From Streptomyces altiplanensis (GTDB lineage Bacteria; Actinomycetota; Actinomycetes; Streptomycetales; Streptomycetaceae), in NCBI GenBank assembly GCA_003719395.1, contig RHMC01000009.1, positions 1-64,000 of the forward strand: 64,000 nt of DNA, read 5' to 3'. Both the position numbers and the translations under genes were made by a program. Within the stretch, counting starts at the first letter, position 1. Every line of letters starts with the position of its first letter. This document shows positions 12,498 through 22,459 of this stretch, piece after piece. The notes below the pieces were generated by a model, which saw nothing but the letters and a program-made list of their open reading frames with translations, was not told the origin of the DNA and ran no database searches.

Positions 12498-12632
12498 ACC
12501 GGGTTTCTCCCGTACGCCGTTGAACGCGTCGGATGCGTCACACGTACCCACGGATACCTGCAAGCAGGTTGTCCGGCCGTCCGGCAGACGGTTGGTTCGT
12601 CGGTGTCACGTATCTGCCCGGGAGACATCTTG

Positions 12633-13418
12633 TTGCGACGCATCAACGGAACCGCGCTCGTCATCGCGGCACTTGTCGCCACCATCGGCGCGCTCGCCTT
12701 CCCCGTCTGGTCCTACGCGGACCGTTCGGGCACCGGTCAGGCCAATCTGAACGCCTCCACGGTCGCGACCCAGTGGGGCCCGCTCTCCGCCACCGACCGG
12801 GACCTGCTGGTGAAGGTGCGGCTGGCGGGCCTGTGGGAGCTGCCCGCCGGCCAGCAGGCGATCGAGCGCGCCCCGAGCGAGGCGATAAAGGAGGCCGGCG
12901 ACCACCTGGTCGTCGGCCACACCGACCTCGACAAGCGGGCCCGCACGGTGGCCGCCCAGCTCGGCGTACCGCTGCCCAACCAGCCCACCGAACAGCAGCA
13001 GGGCTGGCTCAGGGAGCTGTCGGCGGCGAGCGGGCAGGAGTACGAGCGGAAGTTCGCCAACATCCTGCGGAGCGCGCACGGCAAGGTCTTCTCCCTGATA
13101 GCCCAGGTCCGGCACACCACCCGCAACAGTCTCATCCGGCAGCTGGCGAGCGACTCCAACCAGACCGTCCTCGACCACATCACCATGCTGGAGGCCACCG
13201 GCCTGGTCGACTTCGACGCCCTGGCGAACGAGGCCGCGGGCACCGCAACCGCCAGTCCCTCGGGTCCCCCGCCGCCCGACGGCTCGGTCACGGTCCCGTC
13301 GCCCCCGCCGGCGGAGCCGACCGGTGACCAGACCTTCACCTCGCGGCCCTCCGCGCAGCCCGAGGGCGAGATCGGCAGCCCGGCGGTCAACACGGACCGC
13401 CCCGCCCCGTCGCCGTAA
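12633..13418 (+). CDS. DUF4142 secreted protein with Pro/Ser-rich tail
   Basis: About 261 residues. After a signal/anchor helix (TALVIAALVATIGALAFPV), the DUF4142 helical domain runs to about residue 185 (LSATDRDLLVKVRLAGLWE ... QTVLDHITMLEATG), followed by a Pro/Ser/Thr-rich low-complexity tail. No good ATG exists; a TTG at 12633 (or 12630) sits 6 bases after GGAGAC, a better ribosome site than any for the GTG at 12603. DUF4142 proteins are extracytoplasmic and of unknown function. It lies 90 bases upstream of the MNIO gene on the same strand and might share its transcript. Confidence 0.78.
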   Translation: MRRINGTALVIAALVATIGALAFPVWSYADRSGTGQANLNASTVATQWGPLSATDRDLLVKVRLAGLWELPAGQQAIERAPSEAIKEAGDHLVVGHTDLDKRARTVAAQLGVPLPNQPTEQQQGWLRELSAASGQEYERKFANILRSAHGKVFSLIAQVRHTTRNSLIRQLASDSNQTVLDHITMLEATGLVDFDALANEAAGTATASPSGPPPPDGSVTVPSPPPAEPTGDQTFTSRPSAQPEGEIGSPAVNTDRPAPSP

Positions 13419-13508: not shown

Positions 13509-14861
13509 ATGGAACGTCTCGGTACGGGGATCGGCTGGCGGCCGGAGACAGCCGACGCGGTGGAGCGGCTGCCCGGGATCGACTGGGTCGAGGCGGTCGC
13601 GGAGAACATCTGCCCCGGCCACCTCCCCGAGTCCCTCCTCCGGCTGCGCGCACGCGGCACGCGGGTGATCCCGCACGGCGTCTCGCTGGGCCTGGGCGGC
13701 GCCGACCGTCCGGACGAGGGCCGGCTGGCGGACCTGGCGGCGACGGCCGAGGCCCTGGGGGCCCCGCTGGTCACCGAGCACATCGCGTTCGTACGGGCGG
13801 GCGGCCCCCTCACGGCGAGTCCGCGTCTGGAGGCGGGGCACCTGCTGCCGGTGCCGCGCACCTGGGACGCCCTCGACGTGCTGTGCGAGAACGTCCGTAT
13901 CGCGCAGGACTCCCTGCCGGTGCCACTGGCGCTGGAGAACATCGCGGCGCTGGTCAACTGGCCGGACGAGGACATGACGGAGGGCCAGTTCCTGGCGGAG
14001 CTCGTGTCCCGTACCGGCGTCCGCCTCCTGATCGACGTGGCCAACCTCCACACCAACCACGTGAACCGGGGCGAGGACCCTTCGGCCGCGCTGGACGAGC
14101 TCCCGGTGGAGGCGATCGCGTACGTCCACGTGGCGGGCGGCGTCGAGAAGGACGGTGTCTGGCACGACACGCACGCCCACCCGGTGTCCCGGCCGGTCCT
14201 CGACATCCTGTCCGACCTCCGCTCGCGCACCGACCCTCCGGGCGTGCTCCTGGAACGCGACGACAACTTCCCGCCCCTGGAGGAACTGGCCGGGGAGCTG
14301 ACCAGGATCCGCACGGCCCTGGCGGCCCCGCGCCGCCTCGCCCCCGGGCGCCGGGCCCCCGGCCTGCCGGGCGGAGGCCGCGCCTGGGGCCCCGGCACCG
14401 CTCCGTCCCGCACGTGCGCCGACGACGCACCGGACGGCGACGCTCCGGACGAAGGCGGGGCCCGGGACTGCGGCGGCCCCGAGTGCGCCCCCACCCGCAC
14501 GCGCGTCGCTCTCGCGCAGACCGCGCTGCTCTCCGCGCTCGAGCGCCGGGACCCCCGCCCCCGCGGGGTTCGACGCCGCGCGCCTGCGGGTGCAGAGCCG
14601 CGCGCTCGCCGGCAAGCGGGCCGACGTCGTGGCCAAGGTCGCCCCGGAGCTGCCGGGGATCCTCGGGAGCGGCTACCGTGCCGCGTTCCTCGCGTACGCC
14701 GCGTCCCGCCCCATGACGTCCGGCCACCGCCGCGACGCACTGGACTTCGCCGAGCACCTGCTGGCCACCGGCCGGCCCGGGGACGACGTCGCCCGCAGGC
14801 TCCTGACCCACTGGTGGCAGGACCGCGCGGCCCCGCGCCCGCCCCCGCCGTACGACCCTGA
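13509..14861 (+). CDS. DUF692 multinuclear non-heme iron oxidase (MNIO) with fused C-terminal partner-like domain
   Basis: The first 280 residues are a DUF692 TIM barrel (MbnB/TglH family). Metal ligands are visible in order: [69 protein letters not shown] and [10 protein letters not shown]. These enzymes use two or three irons to rearrange Cys residues in peptides. After a Pro/Ala-rich linker, a helical domain (about residues 335-445: [57 protein letters not shown]) resembles the separate partner protein usually encoded beside MNIOs. The frame slips near 14545 and returns near 14830, so the stop at 14859-14861 is probably right. RBS GGAGGGGG before the ATG at 13509. Next gene 46 bases on: the Cys-tail membrane protein. 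Confidence 0.87.
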
Positions 14862-14907
14862 TTCGTCCGTGCGGCGCGTGCCGCACTCCTCAGGAAGTGA
14901 CACTCCG

Positions 14908-15928
14908 ATGCCCCTGGTCCTCCCTGCCCTGCTGATCACGCTCGCCGTGGTCTCGGCCTCCCTCACCCTGACCCTCGGTGTCCGGGCCCTGCGCCGGTCC
15001 TCCGGCGGCGGCCCCGCCCATGCCCACGACCTCATGGAGGTCGCGTTCCTGAACGGCGGCCCCTCCCGGGCCGTGGACACCGCGCTCGCCTCGATGCAGT
15101 CCGACGGCCGCCTCGCGATCGGCGGCCCCGGCATCGCCTCGGCGCGGAGCACCCTCGCCCGTGACCCGGTGGAGCGGACCGTGTTCGCGGAGCTCGCCGC
15201 CGCGCCCAACGGCGCGCTGCACACCCTGCGCCACGCGGTGATGCGCAGCGCGACGGTTCAGGAGATCGGTGACAGTCTCGCGTTCCGCGGCCTGATGGTG
15301 GAACCGCGGGCGGCCCGCAAGTGGCGCTCCGGCAGCATCGCCCTGCTGGTGGCCTGTGCCCTCGGGGTGCCCGTCGCCCTCGTGGTGACGATGGTGGTGT
15401 CGGTCCTGGAGGAATCCTTCGCCCCGTTCGTCCTCATGGTGCTGCCCGCCCTGCTCCTGGGGATCGTGTGCGGCGCGGTCAACGCGTTCCGGGCGGGCGC
15501 CCGGGTCACCCCTGCGGGCCGCGCGGCGGTCAGGGCGTATCGGGCCGCACACGCGGACCGGTCCGACGTGGGCCACCTGGTCGCCCTGAACGGCCTGCGG
15601 GGGCTGCCGACCTCGTGCTGTGGGAGCAGCTGCGGACGGCGGCGCGGCTGACCCCCGGCATACCCCGTGCCTCTTCCCGCAGGCCGTCGCCGGACAACGG
15701 CGACAACAGCACCGCGTACGCGACGGTGGCCGTGGTCTGGTGCGCCGGTTCCAGCTCCGGAGCTTCGAGCTGCGGCTCCAGCTCGGGCGGTTCGGGCTCC
15801 GGGCACGACTCGGGGTCGGGGGCTCCGGCGGGTCGAGCTGCGGCAGCGGCGGCGGATCCAGCTGCGGCAGCAGCGGTGGGTCGAGCTGCGGCGGCGGGGG
15901 CGGATCCAGCTGCGGCGGCGGATCCTGA
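14908..15928 (+). CDS. TIGR04222-like membrane protein with SSCG-repeat tail (frameshifted)
   Basis: About 340 residues after correction. It starts at the ATG at 14908 behind AGGAAG, with one N-terminal helix ([19 protein letters not shown]). A soluble domain follows ([31 protein letters not shown]-like). Two central helices come next ([37 protein letters not shown]), then [14 protein letters not shown]. Frame losses near 15605 and 15815 (a G run) hide the C-terminus. Corrected, it becomes almost pure Gly/Ser with five SSCG units ending SSCGGGS at 15928. From memory this N-terminal architecture with a near-uncomplex tail is TIGR04222, known to neighbour DUF692 genes. I infer the tail is modified by the MNIO. 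Confidence 0.8.
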
Positions 15929-15972: not shown

Positions 15973-16086
15973 ACCGCCCTCACGGCCCGTCGGGTCATTG
16001 ACCCCGACACCGCCCACCGGTGCTTTACTTCGCCAACTGCCCCACCAAGTATCCCTTTTGTCATGTAACTGCACGAAGGGAACGCG

Positions 16087-17692
16087 ATGAGAGCACTGGC
16101 GATGTACGGGACCCTGGCATCTCTCGGTTCCCTGGCCCTGACCTCCCTCGTCGCCGCCCCGGCGGGCAGCCGCCGAACCCCCCGCCTCCCCCGAAGCCCG
16201 CGGCACCGCGCTCGCCGCCCAGCGCGCGGCCGCCGCCGGCATCGCCTTCGGTACGTGCCCCGAGGCCGAGGCCCTGCCCGCACCGGTCGAGTGCGGCACC
16301 TTCAAGGTCCCCCTCGACTACGCCGCCCCCGGCGGCCGCCAGATCTCACTGACCGTCAGCCGCGCCCGCGCGACCGGAAAGCCCGCCGCACGCCAGGGCG
16401 CGCTCGTCTACAACCCCGGCGGCCCCGGCGCCTCCAGCATGTACTTCCCGATGGCGGGCGCGATGCCCGAGTGGAAGCGGACCGGCGCGGCGTACGACCT
16501 CGTCGGCTACGCCCCGCGCGGCGTCGGCCGCTCGGCCCCGCTCTCCTGCCGGGACCCCAAGGACTTCGCCGGGGCGCCCAGCCAGTCCCCGACGCACCCC
16601 TCCCACGCGTACAAGCAGCAGCAGATCGCCCGGGCCAAGGCGTATGCCGACGGTTGTGCCCGCAGGGCGGGCGGCGCGCTGCGCCACTACACCTCGCTGA
16701 ACAACGCCCGCGACCTGGACGTGCTGCGGGCGGCACTGGGTGAGAAGAAGCTGACCTTCATGGGCGCCTCGTACGGCACCTACTTCGGCGCGCTGTACGC
16801 GACGCTCTTCCCCTCCCACGTACGCCGCATGGTCTTCGACTCGCCCGTCAACCCCGACCCCCACCAGATCTGGTACCGCAACAACCTCGACCAGTCACTC
16901 GCCTTCGAGGGGCGCTGGAAGGACTTCCGCACCTGGGTCGCCAAGCACGACCGGACGTACCGCCTGGGCGCCACGCCCGACAAGGTCCGGCTCAGCTACG
17001 AGAAGGCGCGCGCCCGGCTCTCGCGCGAACCGGCGGGCGGCACCGTGGGCCCCGGCGAACTCCAGGCGGCGATGCTGAGCGCCGGTTACTACGACGACTA
17101 CTGGGCGATGCGCGCCACGGCGCTCTCGGAGTACCTGAAGGGCAATCCGAAGCCGCTGATCGAGCAGGCGTCGCCCCGGCCCGAGGCGATGCGGGACGAG
17201 GAGAACGGCAACGCCGTCTACACCGCCGTCGAGTGCAACGACGCGCCCTGGCCGACCGACTGGTCGGTGTGGAACCACGACAACAGCCTGCTCGCGCTGC
17301 GCGCGCCCTTCGAGACGTGGAACAACGTGTGGATGAACCTGCCGTGCGCCCACTGGAGCGCGCCGCGGCAGCAGCCCCTGGACGTCGGTACGGGGCCGGG
17401 TGAGCTGCCCCCCACGCTGATCCTGGCCGCCGAGCGGGACGCGGCGACGCCGTACCCGGGCGCGCTGGAGCTTCAGCGGCGGCTGGCCGGATCGGTGCTG
17501 GTCACGGAGCGGGACGCCGGCACGCACGGCATCGGCGGCGGCGAGAACGCGTGCGTCAACGGTCACCTGGAGACGTATCTCCTGACCGGTCGGACACCGG
17601 TGCGGCGCGCGCAGTGCGCGCCGCACCGGGAGCCGAACCCGGTGTCGCTGGACGAACGGGCGGTGGCGAAGGAGCCGGTGCCCGCTGTCTGA
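16087..17692 (+). CDS. secreted alpha/beta-hydrolase, tripeptidyl aminopeptidase type (frameshifted)
   Basis: About 534 residues. ATG at 16087 follows GAAGGGAACGCG. The signal peptide is LASLGSLALTSLVAAPA; the frame slips right after it, near 16167, and resumes AAEPPASPEARG. The catalytic set is that of the Streptomyces SlpD/SlpE tripeptidyl peptidases: GALVYNPGGPGAS (oxyanion), GASYGTYFG (nucleophile Ser), AERDAATP (Asp) and GTHGIGGG (His), with the C-terminal TAP-like segment containing two Cys. One unusual feature is GYAPRGVG where most relatives have DPRGVG. It acts outside the cell, releasing tripeptides from peptide N-termini. Confidence 0.88.
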
Positions 17693-17722: not shown

Positions 17723-18460
17723 TCAGGCGAGGCCCGCCACCAGGTCTGCGACCGACTTGCGCCGACCAGTGTAGAAAGGCACCTCTTCGCGCACGTACAT
17801 GCGGGCCTCGGAAGCGCGCAGGTGACGCATCAGGTCGACGATGCGGTAGAGCTCGTCGGCCTCGAAGGCCAGCAGCCACTCGTAGTCGCCGAGCGAGAAC
17901 GACGCGACCGTGTTGGCGCGCACGTCCGGGTAACCGCGCGCCATCTTGCCGTGGTCGGCGAGCATGCGACGACGGTCCTCGTCGGGCAGCAGGTACCAGT
18001 CGTACGAGCGCACGAAGGGGTAGACGCTGACGTAGTCGCGCGGCGTCTCGTCGGCCAGGAAGGCCGGGATGTGCGACTTGTTGAACTCGGCGGGGCGGTG
18101 CAGCGCCATGTTCGACCAGACCGGCTCCAGCGCGCGGCCCAGCCTGGTGCGGCGGAAGAGGTTGTACGCCTCCTGGAGCTGGTCCGCGGTCTCCGCGTGC
18201 CACCAGATCATGACGTCCGCGTCGGCGCGCAGCCCCGACACGTCGTACGTGCCGCGCACGGTGACGTCCTTGGCCGCGAGCTGGTCGAACAGCTCCTGGA
18301 CCTCGTCGGCGAAACCGGCGCGCGCGGTGTCGTCGGGCAGCACGTCCCGAAGCTTGAAGACGGACCACAGGGTGTAGCGGATGACGTCGTTGAGGTCCTT
18401 GGCCTTCTTGCCGGCGTTCGGCCCTCGGGGGGATGTCACAGTCTCCGGAGCATCAGTCAT
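17723..18460 (-). CDS. hemQ: coproheme decarboxylase HemQ (ChdC)
   Basis: 245 residues from the ATG at 18460, intact. Actinobacterial chlorite-dismutase-family enzyme performing the last step of heme b synthesis in the coproporphyrin-dependent route: coproheme to heme b with H2O2. The motif [13 protein letters not shown] contains the conserved catalytic Tyr; [20 protein letters not shown] carries the proximal His-loop equivalent region, and [18 protein letters not shown] is the usual C-terminal signature. Its ATG lies 4 bases after the stop of the upstream coproporphyrinogen oxidase gene, so both are one transcript. Confidence 0.93.
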
Positions 18461-18464
18461 GTCC

Positions 18465-19892
18465 CTATTCTCCCGTGCCGTGATCCGTGCCCCGCGCCGG
18501 GTCCGGGGTGAGCATGATCTCGTCGGCCGCGCGCGTGCCGCTCGCGATGCACGCGGGGGATGCCCACACCGTCGTACGCCGCCCCGCAGACCCGCCAGTC
18601 CCGGCAGCTTCGCGACCTCGCCCCGCACCCGCGCGACCCGGTCGGGGTGGCCGACGGGATACTGCGGCAGGCCGCCGATCCACCGGGTCACCTCGGTGGC
18701 CACGGGCCGGGCCGCGAGGCCGGTCGCCGCGCCGAGGTCCGCCAGGGACACGTCGACGAGTTCACCGTCCTCGCGGTGCAGGTGTTCCTCCTCGCCGTAA
18801 CGGCCGATGGAGGTGCGCAGGAGGAACAGGTCGGGGGCGGAGGCGTTCGTCCAGTTCCACTTGCGGGTCGAGAAGGTGGCGGCCTTGATGGTCCGCCCGT
18901 CCACGGGCGGCACGAGGAAGCCGGACCCTTGGGGCATCGCCTCCACGTCCCGGCGCCGGAACGCCATGGTCACCAGGGCCATCGACGCGTACTCGACGGC
19001 GGACAGCTCGGCGGCCGCGGCCGGTGACTCGGCGGCGAGCAGCGCGGCGGCGGACCAGGCGGGGGCCGCGAGGACGACGGCGTCGGCCGCGATCACCCGC
19101 TCGTCGGTACGTACCTGCCAGCCGCCGGCGTCACGCGTCAGCCCGAGCACGGGCGTGCGCAGGAGGATCTCGCCGCCCCGGGCGCGCACCGCGTCGGCGA
19201 GCGGCGCCGGGCAGCGTGCCGATGCCTCCCGCGATCCCCATGAAGACGGGACCGGTCTGCTGCTTCTCGCCCGCCCGCCGCTGGATCTCCCGTACGCCGT
19301 CGAGGAGCGAGTCGTACGCCCGCGCCGCCTCGAAGAGCTGCGGCACGGCGGCGCGCATCGACGTCCGGTACACATCACCGGCGTACACGCCGCCGAGCAG
19401 CGGCTCCACCAGCCGGTCGACGACCTCCCGGCCGAGACGGGCCGCGACGTACGCGCCGATCGCGATGTCGTCGCCGACGTCGTGCGCGGCAGTTCGTGGT
19501 CGCGGCGCATCCGGGCGAGGGCGTCCTCGGAGAGGACGCCGCCGAGCACCGCCGGGTCGCCCGGCACGCCCATCACGTGGCCCTTGGGCATGGGGGTGAG
19601 CGTGCCCCGGTTCCACAGCGACGCGGTGGCGGTGGCGGGCGGCTGGAGCCGGTCGCCGAGCCCCACCGCACGGGCCAGGGCGACTGCCTCGGGGCGCCGG
19701 GCGCGCATCGACTCGGTGCCCAGGTCGACGGCGCGCCCGCGATCTCACCCGCCAGGAGCTTGCCGCCGAGCCGGTCCGTCGCCTCCAGCAGGGTCACGCG
19801 CGCACCGGCGCCGGCCAGCCGGTGCGCGCGGCGAGCCCGGCGATGCCGCCGCCGATGACGACGGCAAGGCCCGTACGAGGTTCCACGTTCAT
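18465..19892 (-). CDS. cgoX: coproporphyrinogen III oxidase, HemY/CgoX type (multiple frameshifts)
   Basis: FAD-dependent oxidase making coproporphyrin III, the step two before HemQ (iron insertion lies between). The start is the ATG at 19892: [22 protein letters not shown] with the dinucleotide-binding [24 protein letters not shown] and [21 protein letters not shown] follow in other frames; then [20 protein letters not shown] and, after another slip near 18585, [16 protein letters not shown] at the C-terminus. At least five single-base losses (near 19815, 19740, 19490, 19215 and 18585) fragment it. Domain order is complete, giving about 480 residues, so I treat it as one functional gene with sequence errors. 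Often called hemG or hemY in Streptomyces annotations. Confidence 0.88.
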
Positions 19893-20021
19893 GGGGTCCA
19901 CTCTCTCAAACCCGGAACGAGTCCTGACCGTGACCGCTTCGGGACCGGAAAACGGCAACCCCCTCCCCCGTCCCGCACGTCGAACCGGCAACATCCACCA
20001 CGACGTTCGGGGGGAACCGAC

Positions 20022-21000
20022 ATGCGTGCAGCACGTACGTCCGGGCACCGTTCTTCCAAGGTCCTCGCGACCGCTCTGCTCACCGCTTCGCTGGCGCTCG
20101 GCGGATGCGGCGCCTCCAACAACGATGAGGCCGGCAGCAAGAGCGCGGCCGACGCTCCGGCCGGGGGGCGGGCGGAGCGGGCGTCGGCGACGGCGCGCGG
20201 CCGACTCGGGGGCGAAGGCGCCCGCCGACGGGACCGGGGCGAAGAAGCCACCGCTCGCCAAGACCCATGTCATCCGTACCGCGACGCTCTCGGTCGAGGT
20301 CGCCGACGCCACGAAGGCGCTCGCCACGGCCCGTACGGCGGCCGAGAACGCCGGGGGCATCGTCGGCAACGAGACCACCGAGCGGATCGACGACGGTCAC
20401 GTCTACTCCCGCATCGTCCTGCGCGTCCCGCAGGAGGAGTACGACGCCGTGCTGAAGGAGCTCTCCGGCACCGGCAAGCTGCTGAACCGCAAGGCCGAGG
20501 CCAAGGACGTCACCGAGCAGGTGGTGGACGTCGACAGCCGCATCACGTCGCAGCGCACCAGCGTCGCGCGCGTACGGGACATGATGGACCGGGCCACCGA
20601 GCTCAGCGATGTGGTCATGCTGGAGGGCGAGCTGAACACCCGCCAGACCGAGCTGGAGGCCCTCCTCGCCCAGCAGGCGTCGCTCAAGGACCGTACGAGC
20701 ATGGCGACCATCACCCTCGAACTCTCCGAGCCCGAGGCGGAGGAGACCGGGGAGGAGGACGACAGCCCCGGCTTCACGGACGCGCTCGGGGGCGGCTGGG
20801 ACGCCTTCGTCACCACCCTCAAGTGGGTCGCGATGGCGCTCGGCGCGGTGGCCCCGTTCGCCGCGGCGCTCGCCCTGCTGTACGTCCTGTGGCGGCTGCT
20901 GCGGGGCAGCCTGCCGCAGCGGCGGACGGCCGCACCCGCGCCCGTGCCCGCGCCCGCCGGGGAACCGCAGGAAAAGAAGCGGGAGGAGCCGCAGGAATAG
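20022..21000 (+). CDS. DUF4349 lipoprotein (frameshifted)
   Basis: About 325 residues. ATG at 20022 behind GGGGGGAACC; signal peptide with lipobox LALGGC. A frame slip near 20185 precedes the DUF4349 domain: HVIRTATLSVEVADATKALA, IVLRVPQEEYDAVLKELS, the coiled-coil heptads around SRITSQRTSVARVRDMMDR, and SMATITLELSEPE. A single transmembrane helix follows (WVAMALGAVAPFAAALALLY), then a short basic cytoplasmic tail. Members are membrane-anchored extracytoplasmic proteins of unknown function. Divergent from cgoX. Confidence 0.83.
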
Positions 21001-21048: not shown

Positions 21049-22459
21049 ATGGCAGCGGCGGAGCGACTGGTGGTCATCGGCGGCGACGCGGCGGGCATGT
21101 CCGCCGCGTCGCAGGCCCGCAGGCTCAAGGGCCCGGACGAGCTGGAGATCGTCGCCTTCGAGCGCGGTCACTTCACGTCGTACTCGGCCTGCGGCATCCC
21201 GTACTGGGTCGGCGGAGCCGTCACGGAGCGGGACGAGCTGATCGCCCGTACCCCCGAGGAGCACCGCGCGCGCGACATCGATCTGCGGATCCGCACCGAG
21301 GTCACCGAGATCGACGTGGCGGGCGGCCGGGTCCGCTCGCGCGACCTCGAATCGGGCGGCGAGTCCTGGACCGGCTTCGACAAACTGGTCGTCGCGACCG
21401 GCGCCCGGCCCGTCCGCCCGCCGCTGCCCGGCATCGACGCCCCGGGCATGCACGGCGTGCAGACCTCGACGACGGCCAGGCCCTGATACTCCCTGGAGCG
21501 GACCGGGGGGGCGGCGCGCGGTGGTCGTCGGGGCGGGGCTACATCGGCGTCGAGATGGCGGAGGCGCTGGTCGGCCGCGGGTACGAGGTGACCGTCCTGA
21601 ACCGGAGCGAGCAGCCGATGTCCACCCTCGACCCGGACATGGGGCGCCTCGTGCACGAGGCGATGAACGGCATGGGCATCACGACCGTCTCCGGCGCAGA
21701 GGTCACCAAGATCCTCACCGGCGGCGACGGCCGCGTCAGGGCGGTCGCCACGGACGGGGACACCTACCCCGCGGACGTCGTCGTCCTCGGCCTCGGCGTC
21801 GAACCGGAGACCACGCTGGCACGCGGGGCGGGGCTGCCGGTCGGAGCGTACGGCGGCCTGGTCACCGACCTCTCCCTGCGCGTGAGGGGCCACGACAACA
21901 TCTGGGCGGGCGGCGACTGCGTCGAGGTGCTCGACCTCGTCTCGGGCCGCCGCCGCCACATCGCGCTCGGCACGCACGCGAACAAGCACGGCCAGGTGAT
22001 CGGCTCGAACGTGGGCGGCGACTACGCGACGTTCCCCGGCGTGGTCGGTACGGCGGTCAGCAAGGTCTGCGACCTGGAGATCGCGCGCACCGGTCTGCGC
22101 GAGAAGGACGCGCGTGCGGAGGGGCTTCAGTTCGTGACGGCGACGATCGAGTCCACGAGCCGCGCCGGGTACTACCCCGGCGCGTCGCCCATGACGGTGA
22201 AGATGACCGCGGAGCGCCGGACGGGGCGGCTGCTCGGCGTCCAGATCGTCGGCCGCGAGGGGCGGGCAAACGCGTCGACATCGCGCCGGTCGCGCTCACC
22301 GCCGGCATGACGGTGGACCGGATGACGGCCCTGGACCTGGGCTACGCCCCGCCGTTCTCCCCGGTGTGGGACCCGGTGCTGGTGGCGGCCCGGAAGGCGG
22401 TCGCGGCGGTGCGGGCCGGAGCCGACCGGGGGGCGCCGTCCAGCCCGTCCGGCGCTTGA
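21049..22459 (+). CDS. FAD/NAD-dependent CoA-disulfide reductase/NADH oxidase family (frameshifted)
   Basis: About 470 residues after correction. N-terminal FAD site VVIGGDAAGMSAA, then SYSACGIPYWVGG whose single Cys (near residue 46) is the redox-active cysteine of CoA-disulfide reductases and Nox-type oxidases. YIGVEMAEALVGRGYEVTVL is the NAD site, and IWAGGDCVEV the second FAD motif. The frame slips near 21470 and again near 22265; after the second, VDIAPVALTAGMTVDRM and the dimer-interface tail ending SPSGA are recovered. It would reduce CoA or bacillithiol-type disulfides, or O2. Start ATG 21049 behind GAGAGGACACGCC. Confidence 0.85.

Follow-up and report, generated by a model that had tools for sequence, protein, structure and literature searches.

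The locus under study lies on the forward strand of the window, by which we mean the whole 64,000-nucleotide (64-kb) stretch of DNA that was analysed, and comprises an MNIO (DUF692) gene followed by a gene for a TIGR04222 membrane protein and a low-complexity stretch with SSCG repeats. The MNIO catalytic domain (13509–14321) matched PF05114 (MbnB_TglH_ChrH) with 265.5 bits against a cut-off of 25 (E 5.7e-79), which confirms the enzyme family named in the initial annotation, and is followed by a partner-like helical C-terminal domain (14500–14829), the homology of which is spread over two frames with a break at approximately 14545–14579. The TIGR04222 membrane protein (14908–15651) opens at the ATG at 14908 and scored 142 bits against a cut-off of 43, so that the second gene had also been recognized correctly as encoding a membrane protein; its stop at 15651 precedes the tail. 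The tail was read in two parts, namely a second-frame part (15603 to approximately 15831; ...VVWCAG...SSCG), which resembles the corresponding stretch of intact relatives, and a third-frame part (from approximately 15831 to 15928), which the reading frames show to hold four SSCG motifs and a stop codon. The upstream neighbor (12603–13418, same strand) encodes a DUF4142 domain (PF13628, E 2.6e-19).

As assembled, the low-complexity tail is out of frame with the TIGR04222 domain, whereas a single frame continues into ...VWCAG...SSCG... in intact relatives; the TIGR04222 profile itself does not demand such a tail. The SSCG motifs start at 15625 in the TIGR04222 frame, at 15765 in the second frame, and at 15833, 15857, 15881, and 15905 in the third. 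The repeats previously described as a five-fold C-terminus of the membrane protein are real up to 15928, but number six over three frames, four of them consecutive in one frame, and do not form the C-terminus of the TIGR04222 protein in this assembly. The MNIO gene is broken within its C-terminal domain (homology ends at 14579 in frame 3 and starts at 14545 in frame 1), and since its homologs pass from frame 3 to frame 1 at this break, the gap of 46 bases that had been placed between the two genes is an artefact, and the MNIO C-terminus that had been assigned (to 14861) follows the wrong frame. Three neighboring genes (15994–17689, 21055–22271, and, on the minus strand, 18563–19729) are likewise broken in comparison with the intact relative L046, as is this genome's copy of a small tail protein described below, which breaks inside the tail. 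Because these genes are affected in the same manner and their relatives are intact, the frame breaks appear likelier to be assembly indels than signs of a dead or dying locus; the source genome is in 458 contigs and is 90.7% complete. With several genes between 13509 and 22271 split across frames, ORF-based readings elsewhere in the window deserve distrust.

An association between TIGR04222 proteins and MNIOs has been reported, together with Ser/Gly/Cys tails and the hypothesis that these tails are substrates, and the accessible text of that paper gives no function for the pair (Antoine et al., 2025; PMC12452194). The present locus resembles the published pairs in its families, their adjacency, a Ser/Gly tail with Cys, and the proposed role of the tail, and shows the arrangement in which TIGR04222 follows the MNIO, the minority order in that paper (more than 10% of cases). 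The initial annotation stated that no published function was known for this pairing, and this holds for the source just cited, but the pairing and the substrate hypothesis had already been published in 2025. Our literature search, in which most of the papers that surfaced were judged from their listing alone, found no tested function of the pair.

A search with eight tail-type TIGR04222 proteins yielded 463 relatives, the best 80 of which were kept; all 80 are titled Streptomyces, and the sample thus favors close kin. An MNIO lies upstream in 78 of these best 80 loci, and the other two (L157 and L174) start at contig ends. Outside the genus, 19 MNIO loci were picked by hand and non-randomly from 49 such genomes, and a Cys-tailed TIGR04222 protein was found near the MNIO in 16 by profile and in a 17th (L300) by eye. 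The profile found none near the MNIO in L301 and L303; since it also missed the TIGR04222 neighbor known in G106 (L091), misses at the picked loci may be false. In an even sample of the phylum (158 genomes), an MNIO was present in nine genomes, TIGR04222 above the cut-off in six, and both in five. Linkage is not universal: of 1372 genomes with TIGR04222 genes, 490 were reported to have no MNIO gene in the accessible part of PMC12452194, and at L072, L074, L075, and L089, a Cys-Gly-tailed TIGR04222 protein is encoded at a distance from the genome's only MNIO. Another TIGR04222-like family, with Gly-rich C-termini containing zero to four Cys, was observed off the MNIO at L082–L089 in genomes without the tail-type protein. 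A tail-less TIGR04222 paralog was considered as an MNIO substrate and dropped, as the Cys residues of its first-helix CxxLC motif vary.

The readable tails of the best 80 of 463 relatives contain six to 11 Cys residues in 79 out of 79 cases (L110, which is off frame, was left out), with Cys-to-Cys spacings of five to nine residues in 409 of 510 intervals; within the twelve most frequent contexts, the residue after Cys is Gly in 411 instances and Ser in 153. Chance can be set aside in view of these numbers and of a six-frame reading of the 64 kb, which gives nine SSCG motifs, six of them within the 300-base tail stretch. Comparison of 28 independent close pairs showed substitutions at 4.1% of aligned Cys positions, 8.0% of Ser, and 6.3% of Gly, while losses through gaps occurred at about equal rates for Cys (24 gapped vs. 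187 kept) and Gly (94 vs. 687). A profile of the tail alone recovered one of five positive controls and DNA patterns at most 36 of 80, and neither was counted as evidence of absence.

The nine putative iron-ligand residues, placed by reference to MbnB (H, H, E, D, N, H, D, H, and E), are present in the window and at all 22 loci with an MNIO and no adjacent tail-type TIGR04222; the 95 other MNIO rows have the same nine, except that three of the positions show a single gap each. The curated cut-off of MNIO_BufB (NF050167), 310 bits, was reached neither by the broken frame of the window (182.6) nor by the intact enzyme of L102 (171.4). Leaving the window out, the MNIO and a further domain of approximately 135 residues share one frame at 35 of 37 loci of the genus (the exceptions being L039 and L043) and, in the named set drawn from the best 80 of 463 relatives, at 77 of 78 (the exception being L115). 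The same domain occupies a separate open frame, that is, a separate gene, in L034, L039, L043, L091, and the Streptomyces locus L304, and also at 18 of the 19 chosen loci of other families, where the match was weak in L302 and absent in L301.

The C-terminal domain, from L102 and as the piece in the window, had no Pfam match, DUF2063 included, up to an E value of 10. An AlphaFold2 model of the L102 domain (pLDDT 82.7) gave 8hi7_A (Z 5.9) and 7dz9_C (Z 5.5) as its top PDB matches after realignment, the next being at 3.5, all within the range (Z below 8, or below 13 for helical bundles) in which a match may reflect a merely common arrangement; Foldseek alone returned nothing significant for the model (best E 2.5; 8hi7_A, E 5.5; 7dz9_C, E 2.8). 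A model of the full-length MNIO matched TglH, 3bww, and MbnB, and because it is the other chains in the entries for TglHI and MbnABC that match the MNIO, 8hi7_A and 7dz9_C were read as TglI and MbnC. The domain therefore looks like a fused partner protein of the MNIO, a reading of the model for which the Z values alone are no proof and which is supported by the existence of the domain in both split and fused forms. TglHI and MbnBC are comparable with the fused enzyme in that their partner chains are its best structural matches, but carry these partners on separate chains. MovX provides a precedent for a further domain fused at the C-terminus of an MNIO, and the part fused in Streptomyces resembles other partner chains. 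An engineered HvfB-HvfC fusion has been described as more active than the co-expressed pair, with 5-thiooxazole as its product, in the accessible text of PMC13419390, and a natural single-chain enzyme would be similarly handy for testing.

Among the 38 Streptomyces with a whole MNIO (the window included, and G028, in which a contig end leaves only part of the gene, excluded), a tail-type TIGR04222 protein lies beside the MNIO in 16 and not in 22; L053 is cut by its contig. The proposed pairing of an MNIO with a tail protein is supported by linkage, at 78 of the best 80 of 463 relatives and at 16 of 19 chosen loci outside the genus, but the 22 genomes speak against a simple exclusive pair. A whole-genome profile search, in which at most the best 72 candidates were scored per genome and seven controls reached 1e-27 or better, found no other site in the 22 genomes that encodes a tail-type TIGR04222 (best E 6e-18). 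In a quick MNIO tree, 21 of the 22 cluster together with L046 apart (SH-aLRT 89 for the L046 branch, which was drawn open), and because the label needs two changes on this tree, MNIO retention without the tail was not counted as 22 separate events.

The whole-genome search also gave two matches to the tail only, in G010 and G016, both of which are small single-pass proteins. We regard this as an undescribed protein family; the examples scanned had no Pfam or NCBIfam match above the cut-off. In its members, an N-terminal hydrophobic segment and a stretch rich in Arg precede the SSCGGG repeats, usually with an SWWAGG-like motif and often with His in between. They are encoded near a DUF2617 gene (PF10936), the flanks of which were read in 37 of the 38 Streptomyces (no DUF2617 match was found in G001). 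At this site, which is unlinked to the MNIO, the small tail protein is present in 19 of the 22 MNIO-only genomes and in 13 of the 16 with a TIGR04222 tail. The misses in the former group are G001 and two genomes with fewer than 600 bases before DUF2617 on the contig (G017 and G014), and those in the latter are the window genome, with its frame-broken copy, and G018 and G035, in which the protein is absent from the syntenic site and had no genome-wide match. An anchor swap, in which the small protein replaces the TIGR04222 tail, had been suggested by a seemingly complementary distribution, as the initial tail-only matches all came from genomes lacking the TIGR04222 tail; it was dropped because this synteny check found the small protein in both groups. 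No small tail protein was present at the DUF2617 site of G037, which belongs to another family. The small tail protein was seen near DUF2617 at L183, L184, and L198–L237, with a neighbor in L184 that we take to be a spermidine-synthase-like gene. DUF2617 has been placed in polyamine-linked operons, according to the accessible text of PMC11237479.

A profile (A8) was built from 34 of 39 small-tail ORFs (70–127 residues). Among Streptomyces genomes outside the building set, it matched at E ≤ 1e-3 in nine of ten with an MNIO (G308 was missed, and the match in G435 was weak, with two Cys) and in one of five without (Fisher p 0.017, uncorrected for kinship, with at most the best 129 candidates scored per genome). 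A pooled comparison (37 of 46 vs. one of five, p 0.012) was set aside because most of the MNIO-bearing genomes had supplied rows to the profile. The MNIO-less match was in G008, an assembly of 740 contigs in which neither an MNIO nor a TIGR04222 match was detected; G263, G397, G463, and G442, the last of which was counted as MNIO-less on account of a distant hit only, did not match. The initial annotation had held that broad occurrence of the Cys tail in genomes lacking the MNIO would speak against the pairing; the tail-type TIGR04222 loci seen gave no such case, and the small tail protein gave one, G008, among the five MNIO-less Streptomyces. In the nearest other family, A8 matched none of 14 genomes, 13 of which have no MNIO of any kind. 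Outside Streptomyces, a small single-pass protein with a Gly/Ser tail and one Cys adjoins the MNIO in G244 and G476; no small-tail match lay beside the MNIO in 20 other carriers. Matches away from the MNIO were a TIGR04222 tail in G410 and what looks like a chance match in G419, and the plasmids searched gave none.

Regarding the side of the membrane on which the tails reside, 13 of 16 Streptomyces TIGR04222 members have exactly three hydrophobic segments. Over the 15 residues that follow the final segment ahead of the tail (in L033, the third of four), the net charge is positive in 14 of the 16 and neutral in two. Of the 15 members that have a third segment, 12 show a neutral or negative stretch following segment 2. 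In the small tail protein, the stretch after the sole segment is net positive in all 34 cases. Upstream of the first segment, charge counts give a net value of 0 or −1 in all 16 TIGR04222 members and of zero or below in 33 of 34 small tail proteins, which differs from the positive n-region of a Sec signal peptide. With topology defined by net charge counts and start codons picked by script, this pattern favors cytoplasmic tails in Streptomyces for both carriers, and the suggestion of the initial annotation that the tail is a surface tail is accordingly disfavored. Among 14 TIGR04222 proteins from other families, four have an extra hydrophobic stretch before the tail that could place it outside, and the published periplasmic reading may therefore hold there.

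We propose that a self-contained enzyme modifies a tethered Ser/Gly/Cys tail in the cytoplasm and thereby gives a membrane-fixed metal-binding patch, a reading for which we see equal grounds for belief and for doubt. The locus would then consist of a maturation enzyme, with an MNIO and a fused partner domain in one chain, and one membrane-anchored substrate; the enzyme would bind the tail on the cytoplasmic side and oxidize its Cys residues. The products would probably be copper-binding heterocycles, such as 5-thiooxazoles, forming a fixed patch at the membrane's inner face, the copper role being suggested by analogy only. The same enzyme may act in trans on the small single-pass carrier, which would explain the retention of the MNIO in genomes that lack the TIGR04222 carrier. 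What the analysis observed are the genes, their fusion and linkage, the makeup of the tails, the conserved putative iron ligands, and the distribution of charges; the tail as substrate, the fused domain as partner, the product, the metal, and the function are deduced from these. A broader version, in which the tail is portable and one fused enzyme serves several unrelated cytoplasm-facing anchors, with products that stay on the membrane and are not released, is put forward more tentatively, as we consider it somewhat short of an even prospect.

The published interpretation also has the MNIO modify the TIGR04222 tail, and the topology predicted in the accessible text of PMC12452194 places the low-complexity tails in the periplasm, where they would act as an anchored bufferin-like metal trap. 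The possible extra helix in the four members from other families is consistent with this, but the positive charges after the last segment in 14 of 16 TIGR04222 proteins and in 34 of 34 small carriers, together with the neutral or negative stretch after segment 2 in 12 of 15, point the other way as far as charge counts go, and we consider a periplasmic trap unlikely for Streptomyces. It is also rather improbable, in our judgment, that the tails are never modified and serve as thiol, metal-binding, or redox tails, with the enzyme acting elsewhere and its proximity due, for example, to shared regulation. Retention of the MNIO without a tail-type TIGR04222 in 22 of 38 Streptomyces and the Cys-Gly tails found away from an MNIO would fit such a situation, as would MNIOs with non-Cys substrates, since a Streptomyces MNIO hydroxylates homocitrulline, according to the accessible text of PMC13174530, and not every MNIO acts on Cys. 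Against this stand the linkage, seen at 78 of the best 80 loci and, in other families, at 16 of the 19 that were chosen, and the small tail protein, which 19 of the 22 MNIO-only genomes possess. The Cys residues may instead be roleless by-products of a drifting Gly/Ser low-complexity sequence, as single-base changes interconvert the codons GGC, AGC, and TGC, tail length and spacing vary, the related proteins L082, L084, and L088 end in Gly-rich tails with zero or one Cys, and Cys is lost through gaps about as frequently as Gly. However, each of the 79 tails has at least six Cys, and aligned Cys changes less than Ser or Gly by a modest margin, which makes drift a very improbable account.

Among comparable known systems are the bufferins, oxazolin, and captophorins, in which an MNIO and a PME-type 1 partner act on Cys-rich precursors, some with EGKCG repeats, with 5-thiooxazole and copper binding described in the accessible texts (PMC12668002; PMC13419390). 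Bufferin-type precursors carry Sec signal peptides, and the partners are DUF2063 proteins, as far as the accessible text of PMC12452194 goes. The present locus shares an MNIO, a putative partner, and a candidate Cys-rich substrate with these systems, but differs in having membrane proteins as carriers, a partner-like domain that matches nothing in Pfam, and SSCG in place of EGKCG. The TIGR04222-MNIO pairs of PMC12452194, the tails of which are argued to be periplasmic, are described in its accessible text with neither an MNIO-partner fusion nor a small single-pass tail family. The pairing is known; the additions that we consider worth following are the fusion found in nature, a second family of carriers, and a cytoplasmic location of the tails, as favored by the charge counts. 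If the tails are substrates, MNIO chemistry would also occur fixed to the membrane, whereas the MNIO products in the accessible literature are peptides, many with Sec signals; in that case, the unlinked small protein would also imply that MNIO substrates are not always findable from the gene neighborhood.

Further single-pass proteins with Ser-rich SSCGSS tails were observed at other sites in G026 (L235, 3498–3869) and G027 (L236, 3501–3860), both of which also carry the small tail protein at the DUF2617 site. In the window, an alpha/beta-hydrolase-like gene and two further genes follow 3' of the MNIO locus (17750–20378), and similar genes are present in L040, L044, and L046; the two genes after the hydrolase-like gene are presumably hemQ and hemG.
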